A stretch of DNA of 47,978 nt from a virus. How positions within the stretch are numbered: the first letter of the stretch is position 1; every line of letters begins with the position of its first letter. The notes under the pieces are model-generated. The model did no database searches. It was not told the DNA's origin and worked only from the letters and a program-made list of their open reading frames with translations. Both the position numbers and the translations under genes were made by a program. Where the stretch lies: IMG/VR virus record IMGVR_UViG_3300022602_003915, positions 1 to 47,978 of that record; one strand, 5' to 3'. Shown here piece after piece: positions 4,360 through 32,173 of this stretch.

Positions 4360-6411
4360 TTATTTAGATGTAGCAACGAATGTTCCATCCCAATCCTTTG
4401 TAAGATTTTTATTCTTCATTTCTTCAATACGTTCTAACCAATTATCATAGTAATGGTCCATTTGCCCATTGAACTCGCCTTTGAGTTCCCTAGTTAGTTG
4501 AGTAGCAACTTTCCATGCTTGGCTACGATACCATCCTAACATCTTATTATGTTTAACTTTAGCAGCGATCCAAGCATCTTGATTTTGTAAAGTGTTTCTA
4601 AATGCAGTATAAATTCTAACACCTTCTTTCTTACCTTTAACGGCAATACAATCCAATTCTAAAGTGAAGTATTCATCACCCAATCTTTCTGCTGTCACAG
4701 GACCTAGTACTAATAGTACTCCGTAGTTCTTACTTTGCCCTTCTAAACGACTAGCAAGATTAACAGCATCTCCTAGGCAAGTATAATCAAATCGTTGTTC
4801 GGAACCCATGTTTCCTACAACAACTACACCAGTATTAATACCGATACCCATTCCAAATGCCGGAACACCTTCTTTAGTAATTTCGTCGTTGAATTCTTTA
4901 AGACTGTCCAGCATTTCTAAGGCTGCTTTGACTGCATCCTTGCAATGTTTAGTGTTATCCAAGGGAGCGTTCCAAAATGCCATTTGGGCATCTCCTATGT
5001 ACTTGTCTAGTGTTCCTTCGTTTTCCAATATCTTTTTAGTCATGGCAGTCATGTAACGATTCATAATCTTCGTTAAGCCTTGTACATCCTTGCCGTAGTG
5101 TTCGCTGATACCTGTGAATCCTCGAACATCAGTGAACATGATTGATAGTTCAGTTTCTTCTCCACCTAACTTTAGTAGACTTGGATCTTTAACTAATTTA
5201 GCAACTAAATCAGGGCTTAGATAACTTTGAAACTGTTTTCTAATCTGTTGTTTTTGTAAAAACTCGCTTATGAACTTAACCCCGTAAGCATGTAACATAA
5301 CCAACACAGTACTACCGAAAAGAAAAGTAGCATCGCAAAGCCAGAGATGAGTATGATAAAGATACGGAGCAAGCAATAGAATGCCGCCAAGAATAAAAAC
5401 ATTTGTAATAATGCCAACATAAACCCACCTTGATAAAAATAATGTAATAAATCCGAGAGCAATGATTGCTCCGATTTCAGCAGCGTCTGCCCAATTTGAA
5501 CGCTGTATAGTAGTACCATTTAACATTGTTCCTAATGTTGCTGCTTGTAGGTATTGTGGCCATATTTCTCCTTTGCTAGTAGCAATAGGATTCACTAATC
5601 CCTGGGCACTTAATCCTACAATAACTATCTCGTGATTAAAGGTTTGGGGCAACTCTGTTAGACTGTATTCTTTAGGAGTTGCTGACCAATCAATCCAAAC
5701 TCGACTTAACCCATCTGTTGTGATTTTGCCAAACTTTGGAACCCGTAGTGCGGATACTCCGGCCTCGTCAATCTTTATTTGTATCTTGGAATCTCCAGAT
5801 GCCACCCGCAAGGTTTCTAACGCTATACTAGGATGTAAGTTGTCATTTACCAGTATAGCTAACGGCATACGACGCACCACGCCATCTATTTCTGGAAACG
5901 TATTAACAATACCCACACCTGCTGCTCTTTCTTCCAATATAGGAACATTGCTGATTAATCCTGGATATTCTACTAACTTGCCCTGCGGAGGCTGACCAAT
6001 AACCTGAGCTGGGCTTCCGTAGTCTGTATTCTTTTGTTTAATGTTGCCCAATGTAGGTAATATAACAGGATACTTTTCCATGGTCTTGGCTAATGTATCA
6101 TCCTGCTTGAAGCGGTCTGCCTCAGGCATTAGCACATTGAATACTACTAAACCCGCTTCGTGCTTATATAAATCTTCAATAATATGAGCATAATAATCGC
6201 GCGGAAATGGCCATTGCCCGTATTTGTCCAGGGCTGCTTCGTCGATGTTAACTACATGTACGGGTATTATTTTAGCGGGCTGGCTAGTAACTAATTGGTC
6301 AAAGTATCTCAATCTCACACTTTCAATAAAGCTAGGATCCCACATTCGGACGAAGACCATTACTGCAAGTGTAAGTAATGCTGTCCAGGGACTTAGCAAT
6401 AACTTTTTCAT
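4360..6411 (-). CDS. CHASE2-domain membrane adenylate cyclase (class III)
   Basis: 683 residues. Layout: first membrane helix about 8-24, periplasmic CHASE2 sensor about 30-300, three membrane helices about 311-377, then a class III cyclase domain about 416-606. Catalytic residues are in place: metal-binding D428 (FTDVRGF) and D474 (YIGDAQMAF), substrate-selecting K470 and T544, and transition-state N551 and R555 (VNLASR). Lys plus Thr is typical of class IIIb adenylyl rather than guanylyl cyclases. It should make cAMP from ATP at the inner membrane in response to an unknown outside signal. The ATG overlaps the upstream stop (ATGA), so translation is coupled to the 6408-6872 gene. A complete sensor cyclase in a phage is unusual. 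Confidence 0.93.
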   Translation of the reverse strand: MKKLLLSPWTALLTLAVMVFVRMWDPSFIESVRLRYFDQLVTSQPAKIIPVHVVNIDEAALDKYGQWPFPRDYYAHIIEDLYKHEAGLVVFNVLMPEADRFKQDDTLAKTMEKYPVILPTLGNIKQKNTDYGSPAQVIGQPPQGKLVEYPGLISNVPILEERAAGVGIVNTFPEIDGVVRRMPLAILVNDNLHPSIALETLRVASGDSKIQIKIDEAGVSALRVPKFGKITTDGLSRVWIDWSATPKEYSLTELPQTFNHEIVIVGLSAQGLVNPIATSKGEIWPQYLQAATLGTMLNGTTIQRSNWADAAEIGAIIALGFITLFLSRWVYVGIITNVFILGGILLLAPYLYHTHLWLCDATFLFGSTVLVMLHAYGVKFISEFLQKQQIRKQFQSYLSPDLVAKLVKDPSLLKLGGEETELSIMFTDVRGFTGISEHYGKDVQGLTKIMNRYMTAMTKKILENEGTLDKYIGDAQMAFWNAPLDNTKHCKDAVKAALEMLDSLKEFNDEITKEGVPAFGMGIGINTGVVVVGNMGSEQRFDYTCLGDAVNLASRLEGQSKNYGVLLVLGPVTAERLGDEYFTLELDCIAVKGKKEGVRIYTAFRNTLQNQDAWIAAKVKHNKMLGWYRSQAWKVATQLTRELKGEFNGQMDHYYDNWLERIEEMKNKNLTKDWDGTFVATSK

Positions 6412-12335: not shown

Positions 12336-13511
12336 TCATTTATAAGTTTGTGTGATAGTTATACTACCAAATGCTTTGGCGTTATTACCGTTAAAATTAT
12401 AAGCATCGCTAAGATGGTCTTGTGTAACTACAACCAATACCTGCGAATCTGCGGGTAAGGAAATATTAAAATAATTTTTTCCATCTTCACTTAAACTGGC
12501 ATAACCCCACCCAATTTGTGACAATGCAGGATTATTATTTTGAAATACTGCAAAAACATTAGGATCAGACGCCACTGTATCATTGACTTTGATACCAGTT
12601 AATTTTTCAAAATTTGCTATACTGACTACAGCTTTTGCGGCTTGTGCATCCGCGGCTTCTTCGTCTGCCTGCGATTTTTCATTTTGTTGCTGCTGTTGTT
12701 GTGTAGTATTTGATTCTGCGATTGATGGAGTATTTGAAGAATCACTGCCCTGGGATGAATTTATAGAATCCTTTTTATCTATATCATTATTAGAAGATTT
12801 AGCATCTCCTGTTGCAATAGCTGCAGATTTGGCCGCAGCCACTACATTAATTCCTGCTATAGTTTTTGGAGGACTTAAATGTAAATTATTACCAATAGGA
12901 GTATTAGACAGATTTACAATAATAGGAGGGGTCGGTGGTGTCGATGAAGTTTCTACCAACGTAGCTTGATAGGGTTTATCAAGATGTACTATTTCCCCAC
13001 CGGCATCTACATCAATTTTTCCAGAACCGCATTCTGTTCCTCTCATAGGGTTACTTTCGCAAGCAGGCATAAGAATAACCATGCTCTTTCCCGTTTCATC
13101 CACACTCATAACGAAGTCGGTTCCGCGTACAGCAATAGCTGCTGTGGGAGTTTTAATATTTACACTATTAGGGTTGTTATGCGCAATAGCACCAGATACA
13201 TATCTTACTGTACCTTCTGCGGCCTTGAGACCTAATTTTCCACCCTGCGTTTTAGGATCATAAACAAAATCGTCTATTACTAAAGCACTATGTTCTGTAA
13301 TTTTAACTGTGGTATTATCTTTAAACTTAATATTAACAATGCCAGATTTGGTTTCAATCCGATCATTCATTTCCACAGTAATATTATTAACTACAGTAAT
13401 AATGTTGCTGCCACGTTTAATAATAGCAGCACCCGTTACTTCATTTACAGCCCCAATGTCCGCAAAGGCTGCTGTTGAAATTAACAACAGTAATACTGCC
13501 CATGCTTTCAT
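12336..13511 (-). CDS. secreted FecR-domain protein
   Basis: 391 residues: signal peptide (MKAWAVLLLLISTAAFA), then a FecR-like beta domain at about 18-160 (GAAIIKRG, NDRIETKSGIVNIKFKDNT, VRYVSGAIAH, TPTAAIAVRGTDF). A long Ser/Asn/Gln-rich linker with a run of six Gln follows (about 230-290), then a C-terminal domain of about 100 residues. Secreted FecR-domain proteins of this type usually bind surface structures or polysaccharide rather than signal to sigma factors. In this operon it may be a periplasmic or surface partner of the curlin fibres. AAGGAAT precedes the ATG and the curlin gene 13521-14315 ends nine bases upstream. Confidence 0.8.
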   Translation of the reverse strand: MKAWAVLLLLISTAAFADIGAVNEVTGAAIIKRGSNIITVVNNITVEMNDRIETKSGIVNIKFKDNTTVKITEHSALVIDDFVYDPKTQGGKLGLKAAEGTVRYVSGAIAHNNPNSVNIKTPTAAIAVRGTDFVMSVDETGKSMVILMPACESNPMRGTECGSGKIDVDAGGEIVHLDKPYQATLVETSSTPPTPPIIVNLSNTPIGNNLHLSPPKTIAGINVVAAAKSAAIATGDAKSSNNDIDKKDSINSSQGSDSSNTPSIAESNTTQQQQQQNEKSQADEEAADAQAAKAVVSIANFEKLTGIKVNDTVASDPNVFAVFQNNNPALSQIGWGYASLSEDGKNYFNISLPADSQVLVVVTQDHLSDAYNFNGNNAKAFGSITITQTYK

Positions 13512-17151: not shown

Positions 17152-17826
17152 TTACCCAATTAATGGGAATAGATTATTCTCTACAAACTCCTGCGCTTCC
17201 TTTTCTGTAAACCCTAAACTGACTAAAACACGGGGTGTATGAGGGTTTTGGCGCTGATAAAAGCAATAAGTATTTTGCGTTTCTGCATAATCTTGCTCCC
17301 CGATTTCCCCTACAGTTTCTAAGTAATAATCCAGTGTTTCCAAACCTAACTCAGCAAACTTTTCCAGTTCATCTGGTCCTACAGCACCAATAGCGACCAT
17401 AGCAGGACTAAAGATTTTCTGTGCCCATTCGGGCAATGGCCTCTTTTTATTCCATTCGATATTTTGAGTTTTACTTGAAAACCACTGCATCATGGCATGG
17501 TTACCTTCCCCCGCGCAGCTAAAATCATGGAACGCACCGCTAACACGGCTGGGCCCTGCTACAATATCGAACCCATAAATTGGGCTGGGATCGTTAATAT
17601 TTGGGAATATTGTAAAGTGTAAAAGCCAAAGTTTTTTAGTTTCTCTAGCATCCACAATACTAACGTGGGCTCTATGATAACGGCCGGAAATATAAACTAA
17701 ATCTTTAACACCTTTATTATCATCTATGGTTAATGAATTTAAATAACCATGTCGAGCAAGTTTTTCAATTATCTTTTCTGAACATGCAATAGCACGATCA
17801 AACACCAAGCTCATCATCATACTCAT
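17152..17826 (-). CDS. ferredoxin-dependent bilin reductase (PcyX/PebS/PcyA family)
   Basis: 224 residues, family size about 230. The core reads IYGFDIVAGPSRVSGAFHDFS (split at residues 83-103), with D101 at the place of the PcyA catalytic Asp105, and EWNKKRPLPEWAQKIFSP, the conserved substrate-pocket loop. These enzymes reduce biliverdin IXalpha using ferredoxin to make pink or blue bilins. The heme oxygenase gene overlaps its start by 29 bases, supplying biliverdin. Several Met codons lie at the start (17826, 17820, 17817, 17814), so the exact start is uncertain. Phage members include cyanophage PebS and PcyX from marine phage metagenomes; here the apparent host is not photosynthetic. The final pigment cannot be told from sequence. 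Confidence 0.88.
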   Translation of the reverse strand: MSMMMSLVFDRAIACSEKIIEKLARHGYLNSLTIDDNKGVKDLVYISGRYHRAHVSIVDARETKKLWLLHFTIFPNINDPSPIYGFDIVAGPSRVSGAFHDFSCAGEGNHAMMQWFSSKTQNIEWNKKRPLPEWAQKIFSPAMVAIGAVGPDELEKFAELGLETLDYYLETVGEIGEQDYAETQNTYCFYQRQNPHTPRVLVSLGFTEKEAQEFVENNLFPLIG

Positions 17827-18337
17827 GTAATATTTTAATAGCCCATTCGAACGCTACATTGGCCTCATCTGCCATATCATCTGTTAGCATTGTTCTTAAA
17901 TTGGTAATAAGTTCTTGGCGATTTTCGAATTCTAAATGACTGTGTGGAGCATCGATTAGCTTTCTAATCATTTGTCCACCGTACATATCTCCCATATGCC
18001 AAGTATATAAATGTGCTAAAATTTGTGTAGGATCTATTAATTTTCTAATATATGCAACATAATCTAATGTGCTTTGTTTGTAGGAATGCTTTGAAGGATA
18101 TAATGAATCCATATCGAGAAAATCTTTATTAATTAAATGCGATCGTTCGATGCCTTTTAAATTATTTAATAATCCCATTTCATAAGCATTATTTTCTATA
18201 GAAAGATACCATAATTGTTTTTGAAAGGTATAATCGACCCAAACATTCATAGGTAATGTTTTGGCAAACACGGCCTTCATGAAAGGTGTAGTTTCTGCTT
18301 CAGCATGATTAACAGCAGTTAATTCTTTTAAACTCAT
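17798..18337 (-). CDS. heme oxygenase (HO1-like)
   Basis: 179 residues, somewhat shorter than cyanobacterial HO1 (about 240). The proximal heme ligand is H11 in VNHAEAETTPFM, and the distal-helix signature is LYTWHMGDMYGGQMI at about 110-124 with the G-D-x-x-G-G core. Heme oxygenase opens heme to biliverdin, iron and CO using electrons from ferredoxin. It overlaps the bilin reductase gene, making a complete heme-to-bilin pathway, and its start overlaps the clpS stop (ATGA). Possible gains for the phage are iron release, heme removal or a bilin product; none can be chosen from sequence. Confidence 0.9.
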   Translation of the reverse strand: MSLKELTAVNHAEAETTPFMKAVFAKTLPMNVWVDYTFQKQLWYLSIENNAYEMGLLNNLKGIERSHLINKDFLDMDSLYPSKHSYKQSTLDYVAYIRKLIDPTQILAHLYTWHMGDMYGGQMIRKLIDAPHSHLEFENRQELITNLRTMLTDDMADEANVAFEWAIKILHEYDDELGV

Positions 18338-18642
18338 TCCACTTCCGATTTAAGGATTAATGGAAATCCATTATGTCTAGCTAATGCTGTACCATCAAAT
18401 ACTTTTTGTTCGGCGATTTCGAATGGATAAACTCCTGCAACAGCTTGTCCTTCATGGTGTATTTTCAATGTGAGATGTACAGCAGATTCTTCAGAATGTT
18501 TAAATATTGAGATCAACATCGCAATTACAAATTCCATAGAAGTACGATCGTCATTAAGCACTATGACCTTATACTTTGGTGGCAATTTAATATCTCTATT
18601 AGAGATTTTTTGTTTTTCGATGATAACTTCTTCGGTGCTCAT
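18334..18642 (-). CDS. clpS: ClpS protease adaptor
   Basis: 102 residues, same as bacterial ClpS (about 106). After a short charged N-terminal tail the core reads YKVIVLNDDRTSMEFVIAML, with the N-D-D and Met that shape the N-degron pocket, then IHHEGQAVAGVYPFEIAEQKV, equivalent to the V-H-x-x-G-x-x-x-x-G-V-x-x-x-E-x-A-E-x-K-V signature with the pocket His. ClpS delivers proteins with destabilising N-terminal residues to ClpAP; a phage copy could redirect host proteolysis. No clpA is present here, so it would use the host protease. First gene of an operon with heme oxygenase and bilin reductase. Confidence 0.93.
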   Translation of the reverse strand: MSTEEVIIEKQKISNRDIKLPPKYKVIVLNDDRTSMEFVIAMLISIFKHSEESAVHLTLKIHHEGQAVAGVYPFEIAEQKVFDGTALARHNGFPLILKSEVE

Positions 18643-18698: not shown

Positions 18699-19133
18699 TT
18701 AAAGCGACTTGACTTTAATCTGACGAGGCTTCAGTGCCTCAGGGATAACGTGTTTAAGAGCAATCTTAAGAACACCGTTTTTGATTTGCGCGTCACCTAC
18801 TTCAAAATGTTCCGGAAGCATCCGACCCCATGTGAAGTTCCTAGCAGCAAGTCCGCGATAAACATACTGTTCCTCGGTGTAGGTACTATCCTCGCGTTCT
18901 GCACGAACAACTAAGATATTCTGATCGAGTTCAACTGAAATATCTTTTGGCTCAAAACCAGTTACAGCCAAATGAATTTCATAATTTTCCTCGTCAATCT
19001 TAATTACATTGTGCGGGGGATAATTATTATTGATTTGATTAGCAAATCGTCTTTCAAAAGGCGCCAACAATGCGTCGAGCCCAATAAATGCTCTATTAAG
19101 AGCGTTTGTATCAAAGTGTACTATCTGATTCAT
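18699..19133 (-). CDS. Hsp20 / alpha-crystallin small heat-shock protein (IbpA-like)
   Basis: 144 residues. The alpha-crystallin domain covers about 38-130: NVIKIDEENYEIHLAVTGF, PKDISVELDQNILVVRAER, and the ending GVLKIALKHVIPE, where the usual G-V-L-x-I motif is intact. The N-terminus (FIGLDALLAPFERRF) resembles IbpA. Small Hsps hold misfolded proteins for refolding by DnaK, whose gene is next upstream. Its leader shares two motifs with the dnaK leader and can fold over the AAGGAG site. A sigma70-like promoter at 19194-19222 overlaps an exact late octamer. Confidence 0.93.
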   Translation of the reverse strand: MNQIVHFDTNALNRAFIGLDALLAPFERRFANQINNNYPPHNVIKIDEENYEIHLAVTGFEPKDISVELDQNILVVRAEREDSTYTEEQYVYRGLAARNFTWGRMLPEHFEVGDAQIKNGVLKIALKHVIPEALKPRQIKVKSL

Positions 19134-19137
19134 AATA

Positions 19138-19160
19138 TTTCTCCTTATTAAGTAAGAATC
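19138..19160 (-). promoter_or_regulatory. shared chaperone leader element (hsp20 copy), RNA-thermometer candidate
   Basis: The element reads GATTCTTACTTAATAA then GGAGAAA before the hsp20 ATG. TTCTTA can pair with TAAGGA across a five-base loop, hiding the ribosome-binding site. A second hairpin (19166-19171 with 19183-19188) lies upstream. The same element precedes dnaK at 21101-21124. Confidence 0.55.
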
Positions 19161-19191
19161 ATTGAGTAGGGCCCATTAGGTACCCTACACA

Positions 19192-19222
19192 TATTTATAT
19201 GCGAAATTATTCTAAAAGTCAA
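19192..19222 (-). promoter_or_regulatory. hsp20 promoter: sigma70-like overlapping exact late octamer
   Basis: TTGACT at 19217-19222, 17-bp spacer, TATAAA at 19194-19199. The -10 is part of an exact TATAAATA at 19192-19199, so early host polymerase and the late phage sigma could both start here. Confidence 0.6.
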
Positions 19223-21096
19223 GCCTCAGTAAATTCCGCATCGACTACGTTATCTTTCTTTTCTGATGTAGTCTTTTCATTTGCGGCCGCTTTGGCCTTT
19301 TGAATAGCCTGTGCAGCCGCAAACAAATCGCTGGTTTTCTGCTGAATAACATCCTTATCTGTGTTCTCGGCAGCAGTTTTTAGATCGGTAATAGCTGTTT
19401 CAATTTTATTAATATCATCAGCAGTTAACTTATCCTTAACCTCATCTAACTCGGTTTTTATATTGTGTGCTAGAGATTCTGCAGAATTACGTGCATCAAT
19501 TAATTCCCGTTGTTTACGATCCGATTCGGCATTAAGTTCGGCATCTTTAATCATTTGTTCAATTTCTGCATCTGATAATCCCGAATTGGCTTTAATAGTG
19601 ATCTTATTTTCTTTACCAGTATTCTTATCCTTGGCGCTGACGTGCATAATACCATTGGCATCTAGATCAAAAGTAACTTCGATCTGAGGAGTTCCTCGAC
19701 GTGCTGCCGGAATACCTTCGAGATTAAACTCTCCCAACAACTTATTGTGCTGACAAAGTTCTCTCTCGCCTTGAAATACACGGATAGTAACAGCAGGCTG
19801 GTTATCTTCAGCGGTGCTGAATACTTGACTACCTTTAGTAGGAATTGTGGTATTTTTTTGAATTAACTTGGTCATTACACCGCCCATAGTTTCGATACCC
19901 AGGCTCAATGGAGTAACATCAAGTAAGAGAACATCATTACGATCCCCTGATAGAACAGCGCCCTGGATGGCTGCACCCACAGCAACAGCTTCGTCTGGAT
20001 TAACATCCTTTCGAGGTGCTTTGCCGAACAGCTTTTCAACAGTTTCCTGTACCTTAGGCATACGAGTCATTCCGCCAACAAGAATAACCTCATCAATGTC
20101 GTTAGCGGTAATCTTAGCATCTGCTATTGCAGTCTTACAAGGTCCAATGCTTCTTTCAATTAATTTCTCAACTAGAGTTTCTAATTTAGCACGAGTCAAT
20201 TTGATATTAAGATGCTTAGGTCCGGTAGAATCTGCAGTGATGTAAGGAAGATTAACGTCAGTCTGTGTGCTGCTGGACAATTCAATTTTAGCTTTTTCAG
20301 CAGATTCCTTAAGTCTCTGTAGAGCCAATACATCCTTAGTTAAATCCACACCTGTATCTTTGAGAAATTCTTCTACTAGATAATCCATGATACGTTGATC
20401 AAAGTCTTCGCCACCCAGGAATGTATCTCCGTTAGTAGATAAAACTTCTATCTGTTTTTCACCATCTACATTGGCAATTTCAATAATGCTAACATCGAAG
20501 GTACCACCGCCCAGGTCATAGACAGCAATTTTACGATCTCGTTTATCTTTCTTATCTACGCCATAAGCTAATGCAGCCGCAGTAGGTTCATTGATAATAC
20601 GCAGTATTTCCAAACCTGCAATCTTACCTGCATCCTTAGTGGCTTGCCGCTGACTATCATTAAAATATGCCGGAACAGTAATAACCGCTTGGGTAACTTC
20701 ATGGCCGAGATAATCTTCTGCGGTCTTTTTCATTTTACGCAAAATTTCTGATGAAATCTGCGGAGGTGCTAAATCCTCTCCATTTGCATGAACCCATGCG
20801 TCACCATTTTTAGCTTCTACAATCTTGTAGGGCATTAGGTCGATATCTTTTTGCACAGCTTCTTCTGTGAATTTTCGACCAATTAAACGTTTAGACGCAT
20901 AGATAGTATTCTTAGGGTTGCTAACAGCTTGTCGTTTCGCGCTGGCTCCTACTAGAATTTCTTTATCTTTATAGGTGACAATAGAAGGGGTTGTTCGAGC
21001 ACCTTCTGCGTTTTCAATAACTTTTGGGGATCCTGCTTCGATTACGGCTACACAAGAATTTGTGGTGCCGAGGTCAATTCCGATTACATTACTCAT
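19219..21096 (-). CDS. dnaK: DnaK (Hsp70) chaperone
   Basis: 625 residues, near full length (E. coli 638). ATPase signatures: [28 protein letters not shown] and [15 protein letters not shown]; interdomain linker [14 protein letters not shown]; substrate-binding domain with [19 protein letters not shown]; helical lid and an acidic end reading VVDAEFTEA. It should be an active ATP-driven chaperone in the cytoplasm. No dnaJ or grpE is seen, so host co-chaperones would be needed. It has a perfect sigma70 promoter, a late-like octamer, and a leader sharing motifs with hsp20. Complete dnaK genes are rare in phages. Confidence 0.97.
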
Positions 21097-25673: not shown

Positions 25674-25944
25674 TTTTCTCCCAACAATTATTTTTATAGT
25701 CCCAATGACGAGTATCATAAAAATTAAAATCGAAAACATAGCCCAGTAACTCAATAACAAATTGAACTCCGGCATGGTCTTGAGCCGTTGGAGCAAATGT
25801 AAAACTGAATCCAAGAAGAGACGAATGTTTATAAAATTCGATTTCTAGATTTTTATTTTTAGAAATCTTCCAGTAACGATGCCAAATGGGTTGGAATATT
25901 TCCTCCCAAAAGGGATTGTTTAAACTAAAACCAATAAAGATCAT
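25666..25944 (-). CDS. conserved-type phage protein, unknown function
   Basis: 92 residues beginning MIFIGFSLNNPFWEEIF and containing ISKNKNLEIEFYKHSSLLGFSF, DHAGVQFVIELLGYVFDFNFYDTRHWD (split). It has alternating beta strands and many aromatics, and the end D-T-R-H-W-D-Y is distinctive. I recall close relatives in marine T4-like phages, always unassigned. It overlaps the exonuclease gene by four bases, so it is translated with it. Confidence 0.7.
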   Translation of the reverse strand: MIFIGFSLNNPFWEEIFQPIWHRYWKISKNKNLEIEFYKHSSLLGFSFTFAPTAQDHAGVQFVIELLGYVFDFNFYDTRHWDYKNNCWEKTT

Positions 25945-26471
25945 TTCTTTTTAACCTTAAGTTTAGTATAGATATTTTGAACACCTATTGCCTGACGTAT
26001 TGCATCCTGTAATGCGTCATGCTTGCCTTCTTTACTCATATCTGGATCATGCCCGAGGTCAAATAAAGTACGGGTATCTCTTAGTTGCCAAAAATTCCAT
26101 GGAGGAGTTTTATTCAACTGGCGATATATATTTTCTAAAATCACCAAATCAAACGTAGCACCGTGACTCCAAAAATTCGAACAACCCCAAGCAAATTTAT
26201 GAAATCGATTTATAGCTTCTACTAAAGAAATTCTATCGTTAGGACTAAGAGCTTCTTCCATAATTACCGGATCTTGTTTAGCCCACCAATCCAAAGTACC
26301 CGGATCAATATCTCGATTGAGTTTATCTTGATCATCTAGATCAATTTTAAAATAGATTTGATCCCCGATGCCATTGCCCCAAGGATCGAAATGAACTGCA
26401 CCCAAACTGAGAACAACCGCGTTTGGGGTGGTTGCCAAAGTTTCCATATCTACCATTAAATGTTTTGCCAT
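25941..26471 (-). CDS. DEDD-family 3'-5' exonuclease
   Basis: 176 residues. Catalytic residues follow the DEDDh order: D8 and E10 (MVDMET), D108 (GATFDLVIL), H151 and D156 (KHDALQDA). The size fits RNase T / phage DexA-like single-domain exonucleases. It would trim DNA or RNA 3' ends; a role in host DNA degradation or RNA turnover is possible. A sigma70 promoter (26478-26506) places the predicted transcription start at the ATG, so the message may be leaderless. It overlaps the downstream 92-residue gene. Confidence 0.85.
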   Translation of the reverse strand: MAKHLMVDMETLATTPNAVVLSLGAVHFDPWGNGIGDQIYFKIDLDDQDKLNRDIDPGTLDWWAKQDPVIMEEALSPNDRISLVEAINRFHKFAWGCSNFWSHGATFDLVILENIYRQLNKTPPWNFWQLRDTRTLFDLGHDPDMSKEGKHDALQDAIRQAIGVQNIYTKLKVKKK

Positions 26472-26477
26472 GGTTTA

Positions 26478-26506
26478 AGCATAACAAAACATCTGGTAAA
26501 TGTCAA
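26478..26506 (-). promoter_or_regulatory. sigma70 promoter for the exonuclease gene
   Basis: TTGACA (26501-26506), 17-bp spacer, TATGCT (26478-26483). The predicted start is seven bases downstream, the A of the exonuclease ATG. The -35 overlaps the bS21 stop. Confidence 0.6.
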
Positions 26507-26745
26507 TAATCAGTTTTAGGCAATAACTGATCTCGTTGCTTTTTGCGCCATCTAGCTTTGGCAGCAGCAGCTTTACGTTTACGTTCAGTGGTGGGTTTTT
26601 CGTATGTTTGACGTTCGCGTACTTCTTCCAGAATTCCGGAATCTTCCACACGTTGTTTAAATTTACGTAGAGCAAAATTGATAGGCATATCGCCTACATA
26701 AATCTTAGTTCCTTTTAAAAACTCTTTTGGCTGTTTATTATACAT
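26503..26745 (-). CDS. rpsU: 30S ribosomal protein bS21
   Basis: 80 residues (usual length about 70). The core [37 protein letters not shown] matches bS21, including the F-x-x-A-L-R-x-F-K and Y-E-K-P-T-x-x-R-K-R motifs; a basic tail of about 18 residues follows. bS21 binds near the anti-Shine-Dalgarno end of 16S rRNA and is the ribosomal protein most often found in phages. A phage copy could replace the host protein and favour phage messages. It overlaps clpX by eight bases, so the two are produced together. Confidence 0.93.
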
Positions 26746-27964
26746 TTGATTTCACTTTTTTATTAAAAATTAATTCGGCAGGACTTCCTGCTACAGTTTC
26801 TTTACTTATAACAATTTTCTTCAAGCCCCGTTCAACTAGATTTACCGCATCAAATTGATATGGTAATAGTGTTTTTTCAATAATATTTTTCAATCCTCGA
26901 GCATTGGTTTTTAATTCTTTAGCCAATTTAGCAATATGTATTAATGCTTCATTATCAAATACTAATTCGATACCATCCAATTCAAAAATATATTGATATT
27001 GTTTGATAATACTATTTTTTGGTTCTTTTAATACTTGTACTAGATTTTCTAAAGTTAATTCGTCGACATTGGCAGTCAATCCAAATCTTCCTACAAATTC
27101 CGGAATAAATCCAAATTGCACAATATCCTTACTAGTAACCAATTGGTATACTCGATCTATTTCTTTTTTATCTTTAATATTGGCATGAAATCCAATACTA
27201 CTACTGTGTAATCGTTGTTGAATAATCTTTTCTAATCCAACAAATGCTCCTCCACAAATAAACAATATACCACTGGTATCGATTTCTTGCATATCACCAT
27301 TAGGGTGTTTACGTTTTCCCGAATTAGGTACGCGCATTATGGATCCTTCGATCATTTTTAATAATGCCTGTTGTACACCTTCTCCCGAAACATCTCGAGT
27401 AATGCTGACGTTTTCTCCTTTACGAGCAATTTTATCAATCTCGTCAATATATACAATACCACGTGATGCTTTTTCAATATCTCCATTGGATTCGGCAATT
27501 AACCGATTTAAAATACTTTCTACATCATCTCCGACATATCCTGCTTCTGTAATGCCAGTAGCATCGCATATAACAAATGGTATATTTAAATATTCAGCAA
27601 TTTTACGGGCCAGCATGGTTTTACCACAACCAGTGGGTCCTAGCAAAAGCACATTAGTCTTTTCTAATTTAATATCTTTACTAGGGTTATTGATACGCTT
27701 AAAGTGCTGGCTTACTGCCACACTTAATGCAATCTTAGCATCTTCTTGACCAATAACATATTCATCCAAGTATTCTTTGATTAATGCAGGATTTAATGTT
27801 TTATGTTCGGTGGGAAAATCCTTAATTTTTTCATCTGCTAATATATCTACACAAAGATCCACGCAATCATTACAGATTGCACTTTGTTCTCCTACTATAA
27901 GTTTTTCAACATCTTCTTTTTTCTTACCGCAAAAATCACAATGTTGTTTAGATGTTTTGGTCAC
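26738..27964 (-). CDS. clpX: ClpX ATPase
   Basis: 408 residues (E. coli 424), GTG start. Zinc-binding Cys at 9, 12, 31 and 34; Walker A GPTGCGKT at 109-116; pore loop GYVGD at 142; Walker B IVYIDE at 170-175; RKH loop 218-220; ClpP-binding IGF at 257-259; sensor region EFVGRFGLT. All parts of a working unfoldase that docks to host ClpP are present. It should recognise tags ending in small residues such as the phage tmRNA tag (VAA). It overlaps the upstream 132-residue gene by 17 bases and the bS21 gene by eight. Confidence 0.97.
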
Positions 27965-28346
27965 TTAGTATCCTTTCTAATAGTTGTTCAATCTGAGTTA
28001 TTCTATTTGTATTAATATGGCTATAGATTGCAGATAAATTTTCATCATCAGTTTTATAAAAAAATTCATTCTTGCTCAACATATAACTGGCTATGGTCGA
28101 TGTAATATTATTCATACTATCTATATCTAAGTACTTATGCTTAGAGACAGCCATGGCATAAAAAAGCCAAGTGATATTAGGTTCTCCGTTGTAAACATAA
28201 AAATTAATATTATTAGTTAATTCTTTTGCAGCTAGCCATTTACTAACAATTTCCTGATCTTTTTCATTCAGATGACAGAATAAGATACTTAGATTACCAT
28301 TTTCATAAATATCCGGCGGAGTTATTAAAGTAATCTTACCTGACAT
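27948..28346 (-). CDS. conserved-type phage protein, unknown function
   Basis: 132 residues beginning with MSGKITLITPPDIYENGNL and continuing SILFCHLNEKDQEIVSKWL, with an alpha/beta pattern and acidic patches. I recall similar proteins in T4-like marine phages, all unassigned. AAGGAA precedes the ATG and an exact TATAAATA late promoter lies 37 bases upstream. It overlaps clpX by 17 bases, so it may help set clpX translation from its GTG codon. Confidence 0.65.
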   Translation of the reverse strand: MSGKITLITPPDIYENGNLSILFCHLNEKDQEIVSKWLAAKELTNNINFYVYNGEPNITWLFYAMAVSKHKYLDIDSMNNITSTIASYMLSKNEFFYKTDDENLSAIYSHINTNRITQIEQLLERILSDQNI

Positions 28347-29234: not shown

Positions 29235-30518
29235 TTAGAATTTTACACGAAGACCAGTAGCAACAACGCTATTTGAAGTGTTGTAACCAGTGGCGTACAA
29301 GTCGCCTTTGTATTCGTTATATGCCAAGCCTGCATAAACGTCGGCATACTTATTGAAGTGATAATCCAACAATGTTGAACCGGTATATACCTTACCTTCC
29401 TTAACAGCACCATATGCCTTGGGATTCTGATCATAGAAACCAACAGCTAAGTTTAACTTAGGAGTTAAAGAATAATCACCGCCAACCCAAATAACATTTA
29501 CCTTCTGGTCTGCACCAATATAACTTGTTGTTGTGGTTGGATACCCTTCATATGATGAAACAACGCTCATATCATCTGATGCATTGCTCAATGTGTAGGT
29601 TTCAAACCCGGCCTTGATGTTTAGTTGCTTGTTAACAGCAAAGCGGCCTGCCACCATAAATGATTTGGTATCATATGCGGTGCCCGTCAATGTTCCTAAA
29701 GTTTTACCAGCCGATGCCTTAATGGAATCGTTGTTATTCTGATAAGCAACATCAACATTTAATGCACCTAATGTAACACCGCCATTTAGAGCAAATGCAC
29801 GGCCAACATTAGTACCACCATCAGTATTACCAAACTTATATAGAGCACCATAGCTGATTAACCCAGATGAATTTGAATAACGAACTGAGTTGTCGCTACG
29901 CATAACATCGCTAACACCACCGCCTCCACCGATTGTGCCACTGAAGCCAATTGGCGAGAACAGTTGTGAACCAAACAATGGATCATTAGCAATAACAATG
30001 TCATATTCAGGTAGATAAACTCTACCCAATTTAACTGTGCCTAATTTGTCATCCGACAAACCCACCCATGCTTGGCGATTGAACAGTTGGCCATCTAATG
30101 AAGTATTAACGTTAACACTTGAACCAGCACCAGTACCTGCATTTTGTGCAAGTGACTTAGCACCATTATTTAATTCACCGGTCGGTAAGTTAAAACCTGA
30201 TTCTAAAGTAAAAATAGCCTTAAGACCATTGCCTAATACTTCACTTCCAGTAATTCCCCAACGTGAATCCTGAATACCACCGTTAAACATACCGGTAACA
30301 CTTTGGTCAACGGAGGTTTTAGTAGCAGCAAACGGACTTACCGAAGCAGGAAAAGACGAACTAACGCTATAGGATTCCTTAACAGTGCCGACGGCAGTAT
30401 CTAGAATTCCGTAGAGTGTAACCGAACCCTGATTAAAGGTTAAGGTTGCATCTGCGTTTGCGGCGCTTGAAAATGCACCAATTGTCGTTAATAACGACGC
30501 TAAGAAAAGTTTCTTCAT
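29235..30518 (-). CDS. Gram-negative outer-membrane porin (Burkholderiales type)
   Basis: 427 residues. Signal peptide of about 22 residues ends ANADATL; the mature start SVTLYGILDTAVG, then DSRWGITGSEVLGNGLKAIFTLESGF and RQAWVGLSDDKLGTVKLGR (split) are hallmarks of OmpC-like porins of Burkholderiales, as is the terminal Phe (GLRVKF). It should form a trimeric 16-strand diffusion channel. Expression looks strong: two sigma70-type promoters (30598-30631 and 30626-30655) plus an exact late octamer (30560-30567) and its own terminator. A self-contained porin unit in a phage suggests recent capture from the host; it may feed the cell, replace a receptor, or block superinfection. Confidence 0.93.
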   Translation of the reverse strand: MKKLFLASLLTTIGAFSSAANADATLTFNQGSVTLYGILDTAVGTVKESYSVSSSFPASVSPFAATKTSVDQSVTGMFNGGIQDSRWGITGSEVLGNGLKAIFTLESGFNLPTGELNNGAKSLAQNAGTGAGSSVNVNTSLDGQLFNRQAWVGLSDDKLGTVKLGRVYLPEYDIVIANDPLFGSQLFSPIGFSGTIGGGGGVSDVMRSDNSVRYSNSSGLISYGALYKFGNTDGGTNVGRAFALNGGVTLGALNVDVAYQNNNDSIKASAGKTLGTLTGTAYDTKSFMVAGRFAVNKQLNIKAGFETYTLSNASDDMSVVSSYEGYPTTTTSYIGADQKVNVIWVGGDYSLTPKLNLAVGFYDQNPKAYGAVKEGKVYTGSTLLDYHFNKYADVYAGLAYNEYKGDLYATGYNTSNSVVATGLRVKF

Positions 30519-31671: not shown

Positions 31672-31705
31672 GCCTATCACCTCGAATACTTAGACAATTT
31701 TAAAA

Positions 31706-31736
31706 TTAAAAAGTTTGGCATCCGAAGATGCCAAAC
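31706..31736 (-). terminator. tmRNA terminator
   Basis: GTTTGGCATC and GATGCCAAAC form a perfect 10-bp stem capped by TTCG, followed by TTTTT on the minus strand, about 50 bases after the tag stop codon. Confidence 0.9.
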
Positions 31737-31740
31737 GGTT

Positions 31741-32035
31741 GCTTATTTGACAAGGTGTGTCCTACCTCGGCTTAGCTAGTTTCTTAGGCTGCTACGCTGT
31801 AAACGCTGTCATTAGCATTTATATGTTTTGCGCTGATTAAGTCAGTCGCCTCACTGGTAGCCCTTAGGTTATTATTTGCTCCGTCGAAACTGGTCATCCC
31901 CATATGGGCGAGAGAAATCTCTACATTTAAAACTGGAGATTACAAGTTTCCAGTTCCCGTAAATTGGTGGAGATGGCGGGAATCGCACCCGCGTCCGAAA
32001 CACCTTTAGCTAAAAGTTTACTACCATTATCAAAC
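31741..32035 (-). ncRNA. ssrA: circularly permuted (two-piece) tmRNA
   Basis: On the minus strand the acceptor half comes first: GGACGCGGGTGCGATTCCCG ending CATCTCCACCA at 31965. Then a spacer of 63 bases (31902-31964), then the 5' half beginning GGGGATGACCAGTTTCGACG at 31901. GGGGATG pairs with CATCTCC as a 7-bp acceptor stem with a G3-U70 pair, the alanine identity element. The tag (31784-31816) reads ANDSVYSVAA then TAA, aligning with ANDENYALAA of E. coli; the resume GCT has A at -4 as required. A perfect terminator follows. Outer limits are approximate. tmRNA rescues stalled ribosomes and marks the products for ClpXP. The T loop reads TGC where TTC is usual. Confidence 0.93.
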
Positions 32036-32113
32036 TTACTTGTAATTCTTCAAAACTCGAACAGCAAATGCTGCCACAGCTATTACAATAATACCCGGTA
32101 AAATAAATGTCAT
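32036..32113 (-). CDS. 25-residue membrane peptide upstream of the tmRNA
   Basis: MTFILPGIIVIAVAAFAVRVLKNYK, broken here as MTFILPGIIVIAVAA then FAVRVLKNYK: one transmembrane helix with a positive end. GGGAGAA lies upstream of the ATG. Its stop is at the 5' side of the tmRNA acceptor half, so it shares the transcript. It could be a real small membrane protein or a leader peptide; confidence is limited by its length. Confidence 0.45.
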   Translation of the reverse strand: MTFILPGIIVIAVAAFAVRVLKNYK

Positions 32114-32139
32114 TTTTCTTTCTCCCTGTGTTAAACTTA

Positions 32140-32173
32140 TATTTATAATATAGGTGATATATCAGTTTGTCAA
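32140..32173 (-). promoter_or_regulatory. tmRNA promoters: sigma70-like plus exact late octamer
   Basis: TTGACA (32168-32173), 17-bp spacer, TATTAT (32145-32150), overlapping an exact TATAAATA at 32140-32147. Both would drive the 25-residue peptide and tmRNA. Confidence 0.65.

Follow-up and report, generated by a model that had tools for sequence, protein, structure and literature searches.

Here, we show that the viral record IMGVR_UViG_3300022602_003915, of which the whole 47,978-nt stretch analysed is termed the window, carries a complete circularly permuted (two-piece) tmRNA gene at positions 32025-31784 on the minus strand. We consider it probable, at about 0.82, that this is a working tmRNA gene of a huge T4-like phage, which would use the SmpB protein of its host and whose tagged products might be handled by Clp proteins of the phage itself. 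Permuted phage tmRNAs and tmRNAs of huge phages are already known; what we add is the inheritance of such a gene upstream of a phage clpX within a huge-phage lineage, a linkage that was missed by a preceding sequence-only reading of this DNA.

The search with the Rfam models of the alpha, beta, and cyano tmRNAs, which that reading had put forward as a check, identified the gene clearly. RF01850 (beta_tmRNA) aligned to window positions 32067-31712 over its full length (model positions 1-331 of 331) with 124.4 bits (E 1.4e-37, cut-off 84), and RF04321 (tmRNA_permuted) scored 141.5 bits (E 6.6e-28, cut-off 47). The alpha model reached 84.6 bits, and the cyano model, with 55.5 bits, stayed under its cut-off of 70. 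Judged by these covariance-model scores, the gene fits best to the betaproteobacterial subtype. ARAGORN independently called a permuted tmRNA with the tag ANDSVYSVAA, and the folding z-score of the gene was -3.1. The proposal of a phage-encoded permuted tmRNA, which a lack of a covariance-model match, or of an acceptor stem and pseudoknot in a structure prediction, would have contradicted, is backed by the model matches as well as by a stem that pairs and covaries among relatives.

All parts of the gene are read on the minus strand, where the acceptor half precedes the coding half, as had been claimed from the letters. The acceptor piece (31965-32025), delimited by the RF04321 and RF01850 alignments and by covariation, comprises P2 strands, the T arm GCGGG-UGCGAUU-CCCGC, the acceptor 3' strand CAUCUCC (31975-31969), and the discriminator A73 followed by an encoded CCA (31968-31965). 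The 63-nt intervening segment between CCA and the acceptor 5' strand (31902-31964) is very variable among relatives, and its removal by tRNA-processing enzymes is expected. The coding piece to the tag stop (31784-31901), placed by model alignments and covariation, contains the acceptor 5' strand GGGGAUG (31901-31895), a D-loop-like segment (GUUUCGAC), P2 strands, the candidate pseudoknot PK1, and the tag. GGGGAUG pairs across the intervening segment with CAUCUCC at 7/7 positions, including G3-U70, and the outer P2 helix comprises 6 bp in the window (GGUAGU/GCUACC). The tag frame (31784-31816; GCU AAU GAC AGC GUU UAC AGC GUA GCA GCC UAA) encodes ANDSVYSVAA and stops at UAA, in agreement between the sequence-only reading and ARAGORN. 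PK1 (31830-31856) could be formed by CAGU/ACUG and GCG/CGC, with ACGGU/ACCGU or AGAGU/ACUCU and GAU/AUC in relatives; its mean score was 9.5 versus 8.6 for shuffles, a slight excess only, so that a pseudoknot preceding the tag appears plausible, if weakly supported.

An unusual feature of the window tmRNA, which the sequence-only reading did not mention, is the G at T-loop position 55 (UGCGAUU). The T-arm string of the window is present in 60 viral contigs, 51 of which harbor a permuted tmRNA called by ARAGORN, and it also occurs in some bacterial tmRNAs. Thus, G55 is not a mark of decay. A degenerate tmRNA copy was ruled out, since all stems pair and covary and the odd G55 is found in other tmRNAs, too.

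To assess covariation, tmRNA matches were cut from relatives, the intervening segment was removed, and 45 distinct sequences were aligned. The acceptor stem retained 7/7 pairs in 45/45 sequences, with many two-sided changes at three inner positions, and compensatory pairs in relatives include GGGGAUG/CAUCUCC, GGGCCUG/CAGGUCC, and GGGCCCG/CGGGUCC, among others. The G3-U70 wobble was kept in 44 of the 45 sequences. Pairs of the T stem were found in 43-45 and the seven inner P2 pairs in 40-45 of 45 sequences, the latter with up to 24 two-sided changes. Hence, the acceptor stem of 7 bp with its G3-U70 signature, which the sequence-only reading had postulated, holds in the window and through compensatory changes in its relatives. 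At 22 of 54 loci around permuted-model matches ARAGORN made no call; ARAGORN-based counts of phage tmRNAs are therefore probably too low.

Several peculiarities were observed among the tmRNAs of this lineage. In many of them, the T-loop lacks the UUC core (GGCAGUG or GGCAGUU; relatives L144, L147, L151, L157, L164, L169, L184, and L190), often together with an altered D-loop-like segment, GGAUCGAUU replacing GGUUUCGAC; the changes in the two loops may be linked. Between L147 and L148, and among L164, L166, and L169, the tRNA-like parts are near-identical and the intervening segment and the tag differ (e.g., ANDDYFGEVRLAA versus ANDEVFALAA), as if tmRNA segments had been swapped as cassettes. 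In L190, the intervening segment includes a further hairpin similar to a T arm (GAAGG-UUCGAUU-CCUUC), with GAGUA/UACUC on its two sides, a structure reminiscent of a tRNA fragment.

The gene is bordered by putative transcription signals of its own on the minus strand. A sigma70-like promoter, TTGACA-17-TATTAT (32145-32173), corresponds to the consensus at 11/12 positions, and sites of this kind (at least 10/12 positions, at most 350 nt upstream) were detected in 24/45 relatives compared to 5/45 shuffled sequences, often beginning exactly 38 nt before the tmRNA. Its -10 element is overlapped by TATAAATA (32140-32147), a T4-type late promoter motif. With 8 copies in the window versus 11 expected, the count of this motif is not above chance; however, 8/8 copies are intergenic and are followed within about 100 nt by an ORF on the correct strand, as opposed to 27/344 for shuffled motifs, and therefore TATAAATA very likely represents a T4-type late promoter in the window phage. 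Both promoter types named by the sequence-only reading are thus present as motifs. TATAAAT was not enriched upstream of the tmRNAs of the 45 relatives (5 versus 6 in shuffled sequences). From the enrichment of the sigma70-like site and its lack for TATAAAT, an early or constitutive promoter appears common in the lineage, whereas the late promoter looks peculiar to the window phage. An intrinsic terminator (31705-31736), with a 10-bp stem, a UUCG loop, and a U-rich tail, is recognizable in the sequence and coincides in the RF01850 alignment with the 3' stem of beta_tmRNA.

A 25-codon ORF (MTFILPGIIVIAVAAFAVRVLKNYK; 32036-32113, minus strand), preceded by the Shine-Dalgarno-like AGGGAG and likewise not mentioned in the sequence-only reading, is situated between promoter and tmRNA. 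No counterpart was detected upstream of the closest relative or in the other relatives scanned, and the idea of a conserved small upstream ORF was dropped for this reason. L142 and L178 share a basic ORF of 21-22 amino acids (MAYRAK...AAVRR.LR) with a Shine-Dalgarno-like site at the same location, differing from that of the window.

Bacterial tmRNA genes often serve as integration sites (PMC11915505), and the window includes bacterial-type DnaK and porin genes, which raises the possibility that the tmRNA gene was acquired from a host only recently, or is what remains of an attachment site, and lacks a phage function. Considering that the gene is entire and has its own promoter and terminator, that no integrase was found among the proteins scanned, and that covariation points to a long shared history in the lineage, we regard such an origin as very improbable.

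This history can be followed through ClpX. We found 80 viral contigs with homologs 65-81% identical to the window ClpX, and 61 of these contigs contained a permuted tmRNA above the cut-off. In 61/61 cases the tmRNA was encoded on the clpX strand and upstream of clpX, at a distance of 2.6-17.6 kb. Most of the 19 contigs without a tmRNA match end short upstream of clpX; in seven of them, two of which look like one phage, the sequence upstream exceeds 18 kb, and these may truly lack the tmRNA or carry a divergent copy. Gene order around clpX is kept: the tmRNA is followed, several genes on, by a gene for a 132-amino-acid protein (80/80), clpX, the gene for ribosomal protein bS21 (76/80), and that for a 3'-5' exoribonuclease (73/80). 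The tmRNA is a stable gene of this huge-phage lineage, kept upstream of clpX. In relatives of 322 kb and 354 kb, where this ClpX is likewise accompanied by a permuted tmRNA, genes for a terminase and for a Gp23 capsid protein of the T4 type were identified. These genes, and the at most about 51-52% identity of the window ClpX even to phage records, disfavor a bacterial contig mistaken for a phage. At the DNA level, comparison with phages yielded the T-arm stretch as the sole match, and comparison with plasmids yielded no match.

The T-arm string of the window is shared by 60 other viral contigs, and clpX was not seen in the sequence covered of any of these, so the linkage is specific to this lineage, and a general tmRNA-clpX linkage across phages was ruled out (0/60). 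Being confined to one lineage, the linkage does not provide independent evidence of joint function, and shared descent accounts for it equally well. The tmRNA and clpX are separated by several genes and form no operon, and most genes in the region lie on one strand.

ClpX of the window (26738-27964, minus strand; TIGR00382, 500 bits, cut-off 370.75) shows the zinc-binding domain and the Walker A/B, GYVG, RKH, and IGF motifs. Among 81 homologs, the GYVG pore loop and the hydrophobic-GF ClpP-docking loop were found in 81/81, the zinc domain and Walker motifs in 81 or 80, and the RKH loop, which touches ssrA tags in E. coli, in 75. The start of clpX is overlapped by the gene for the 132-amino-acid protein (27948-28346), and clpX is followed by the genes for bS21 (26503-26745; PF01165, TIGR00030) and for the Rv2179c-like 3'-5' exoribonuclease (25941-26471; PF16473, 126 bits), all on the minus strand. 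A role of the 132-amino-acid protein as a ClpX adaptor was rejected, its predicted structure (pLDDT 91.6) weakly resembling nucleoside deoxyribosyltransferases. A ClpS adaptor is encoded at 18334-18642 on the minus strand (PF02617, 96 bits). Among 36 larger lineage records, ClpS was present in 25, including the window, and ClpP in 7, including all five above 160 kb; SmpB was detected in 0/36 of these records, most of which are possibly fragments, and would thus have to be supplied by the host.

It is tempting to speculate that tmRNA, a ClpX specialized for phage tags, ClpP, ClpS, bS21, and the exoribonuclease constitute a dedicated tag-and-degrade route of the phage, with only SmpB provided by the host. 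If so, a fast-changing tag would be read by the phage ClpX, and failed products of the infection period would be tagged and destroyed by phage machinery. The conserved gene order, the intact ssrA-recognition and ClpP-docking motifs of ClpX, and the occurrence of ClpP and ClpS in the lineage are in line with this idea. However, the linkage is lineage-bound and spans several genes, host ClpXP would degrade ALAA-type tags too, and ClpX may target phage or host regulators unconnected with tagging. Moreover, ClpS works with ClpA in known systems. We therefore regard a fully dedicated route as tentative and rather unlikely.

The tags bear on the opposite view, that the RNA chiefly protects phage translation by ribosome release, with tagging and degradation being incidental and the ClpX neighbor coincidental. 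In 29 tag sequences, the end contacted by ClpX varied (LAA 19, MAA 6, MVA 2, VAA 1, and IAA 1), and no clpX was located near the other phage tmRNAs sampled. The window tag, with its hydrophobic-Ala-Ala end, has VAA in place of LAA, which may weaken its recognition by ClpX. Yet, the tag frame is open and recognizable in nearly all relatives read, and ALAA is kept by most tags. Release as the chief role is quite possible in our view, if short of probable. The open, conserved tag frame and the full tRNA-like domain of the window gene also argue against a decoy function, in which the RNA would inhibit the tmRNA of the host and for which the tag-less tmRNA-like RNA of mycobacteriophage DS6A, as cited in PMC11915505, sets a phage precedent; we deem a decoy highly unlikely.

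For the preferred reading of a working tmRNA, the simplest and most economical mechanism would be trans-translation of the ordinary kind, for which the host would supply SmpB, alanyl-tRNA synthetase, and RNase P. By analogy with established tmRNA biology, a single precursor would be transcribed, from which RNase P and 3'-trimming enzymes of the host would remove the 63-nt segment, leaving two paired pieces. After charging by the host alanyl-tRNA synthetase, host SmpB and EF-Tu would bring the tmRNA to ribosomes stalled on broken mRNAs, an event that should be frequent while host mRNA is degraded. Addition of (A)ANDSVYSVAA would free the ribosome for phage translation, and the tagged peptides would be unfolded by ClpX of the host or, more speculatively, of the phage, with ClpP coming from either. 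Passage of tagged products to the phage ClpX would be a reasonable extension of this scheme.

The window tmRNA shares gene order, tRNA-like domain, tag position, and 3' terminal stem with the betaproteobacterial permuted tmRNA (RF01850) and the merged family RF04321, consistent with the full-length model match, but differs in the T-loop UGCGAUU, the VAA tag end, an intervening segment that exceeds the model consensus in length, and the phage promoter context. Two-piece tmRNAs were described in Methylophilales phage Melnitz and its relatives, and 53 ARAGORN structures were reported among mostly aquatic phage genomes (PMC9004378). Like that of the window, the Melnitz tmRNA is permuted, belongs to a T4-like phage, and is expected to have host SmpB as a partner; however, it is alphaproteobacterial-like and riboswitch-linked, whereas the window tmRNA is beta-like and near clpX. 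The novelty implied by the sequence-only reading is accordingly reduced, given these publications and the ARAGORN calls of a permuted tmRNA in 51 of the 60 viral contigs that share the T-arm string; the permuted tmRNA itself is real. Huge phages were reported to carry tmRNA and SmpB genes, for which a rescue role was proposed (PMC7162821). The huge-phage setting is common to the window, but the main text of that study does not mention ClpX, and SmpB was not found in the window lineage. In bS21-encoding phages, Clp and Hsp20 genes are located near bS21, with no tmRNA mentioned (PMC9723584). These phages resemble the window in having bS21 beside Clp genes, and Hsp20 is also encoded in the window, but their bS21 genes lie among virion genes and their hosts are Bacteroidetes. 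Jumbo phage AP-J-162 carries a tmRNA and clpX, of which a linkage was not described (PMC11242549); ClpX of its relative Atu_ph07, for which no tmRNA is listed, is 50.6% identical to that of the window. In the literature, of which our coverage is incomplete, we found neither a description of a phage tmRNA conserved near clpX nor an experimental test of a phage tmRNA with an intact tag. A tmRNA kept upstream of the phage's own ClpX, with tags varying between close relatives, provides a handle on why phages carry rescue RNAs and addresses the question of rescue alone versus tagging for phage-controlled proteolysis.

Further genes of the window deserve mention. Directly beside clpS, at 18699-21096, lies a protein-folding cluster that encodes Hsp20 and a DnaK of full length; this DnaK shares about 66-70% identity with its counterparts in proteobacterial-type records. 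A Porin_4 outer-membrane porin gene (29235-30518) lies between the tmRNA and clpX and is missing from nearly all relatives; the search for close relatives of this porin returned none, and that with an Ig-domain protein returned close relatives at two loci. A CHASE2 sensor protein with a nucleotide cyclase domain (4360-6411) and a FecR-like protein (12336-13511) are also encoded. A ferredoxin-dependent bilin reductase (17152-17826) and an adjoining heme oxygenase (17798-18337) have homologs in 13/80 and 16/80 of the related contigs, respectively, and these bilin-making genes sit in a lineage without known cyanobacterial infection.
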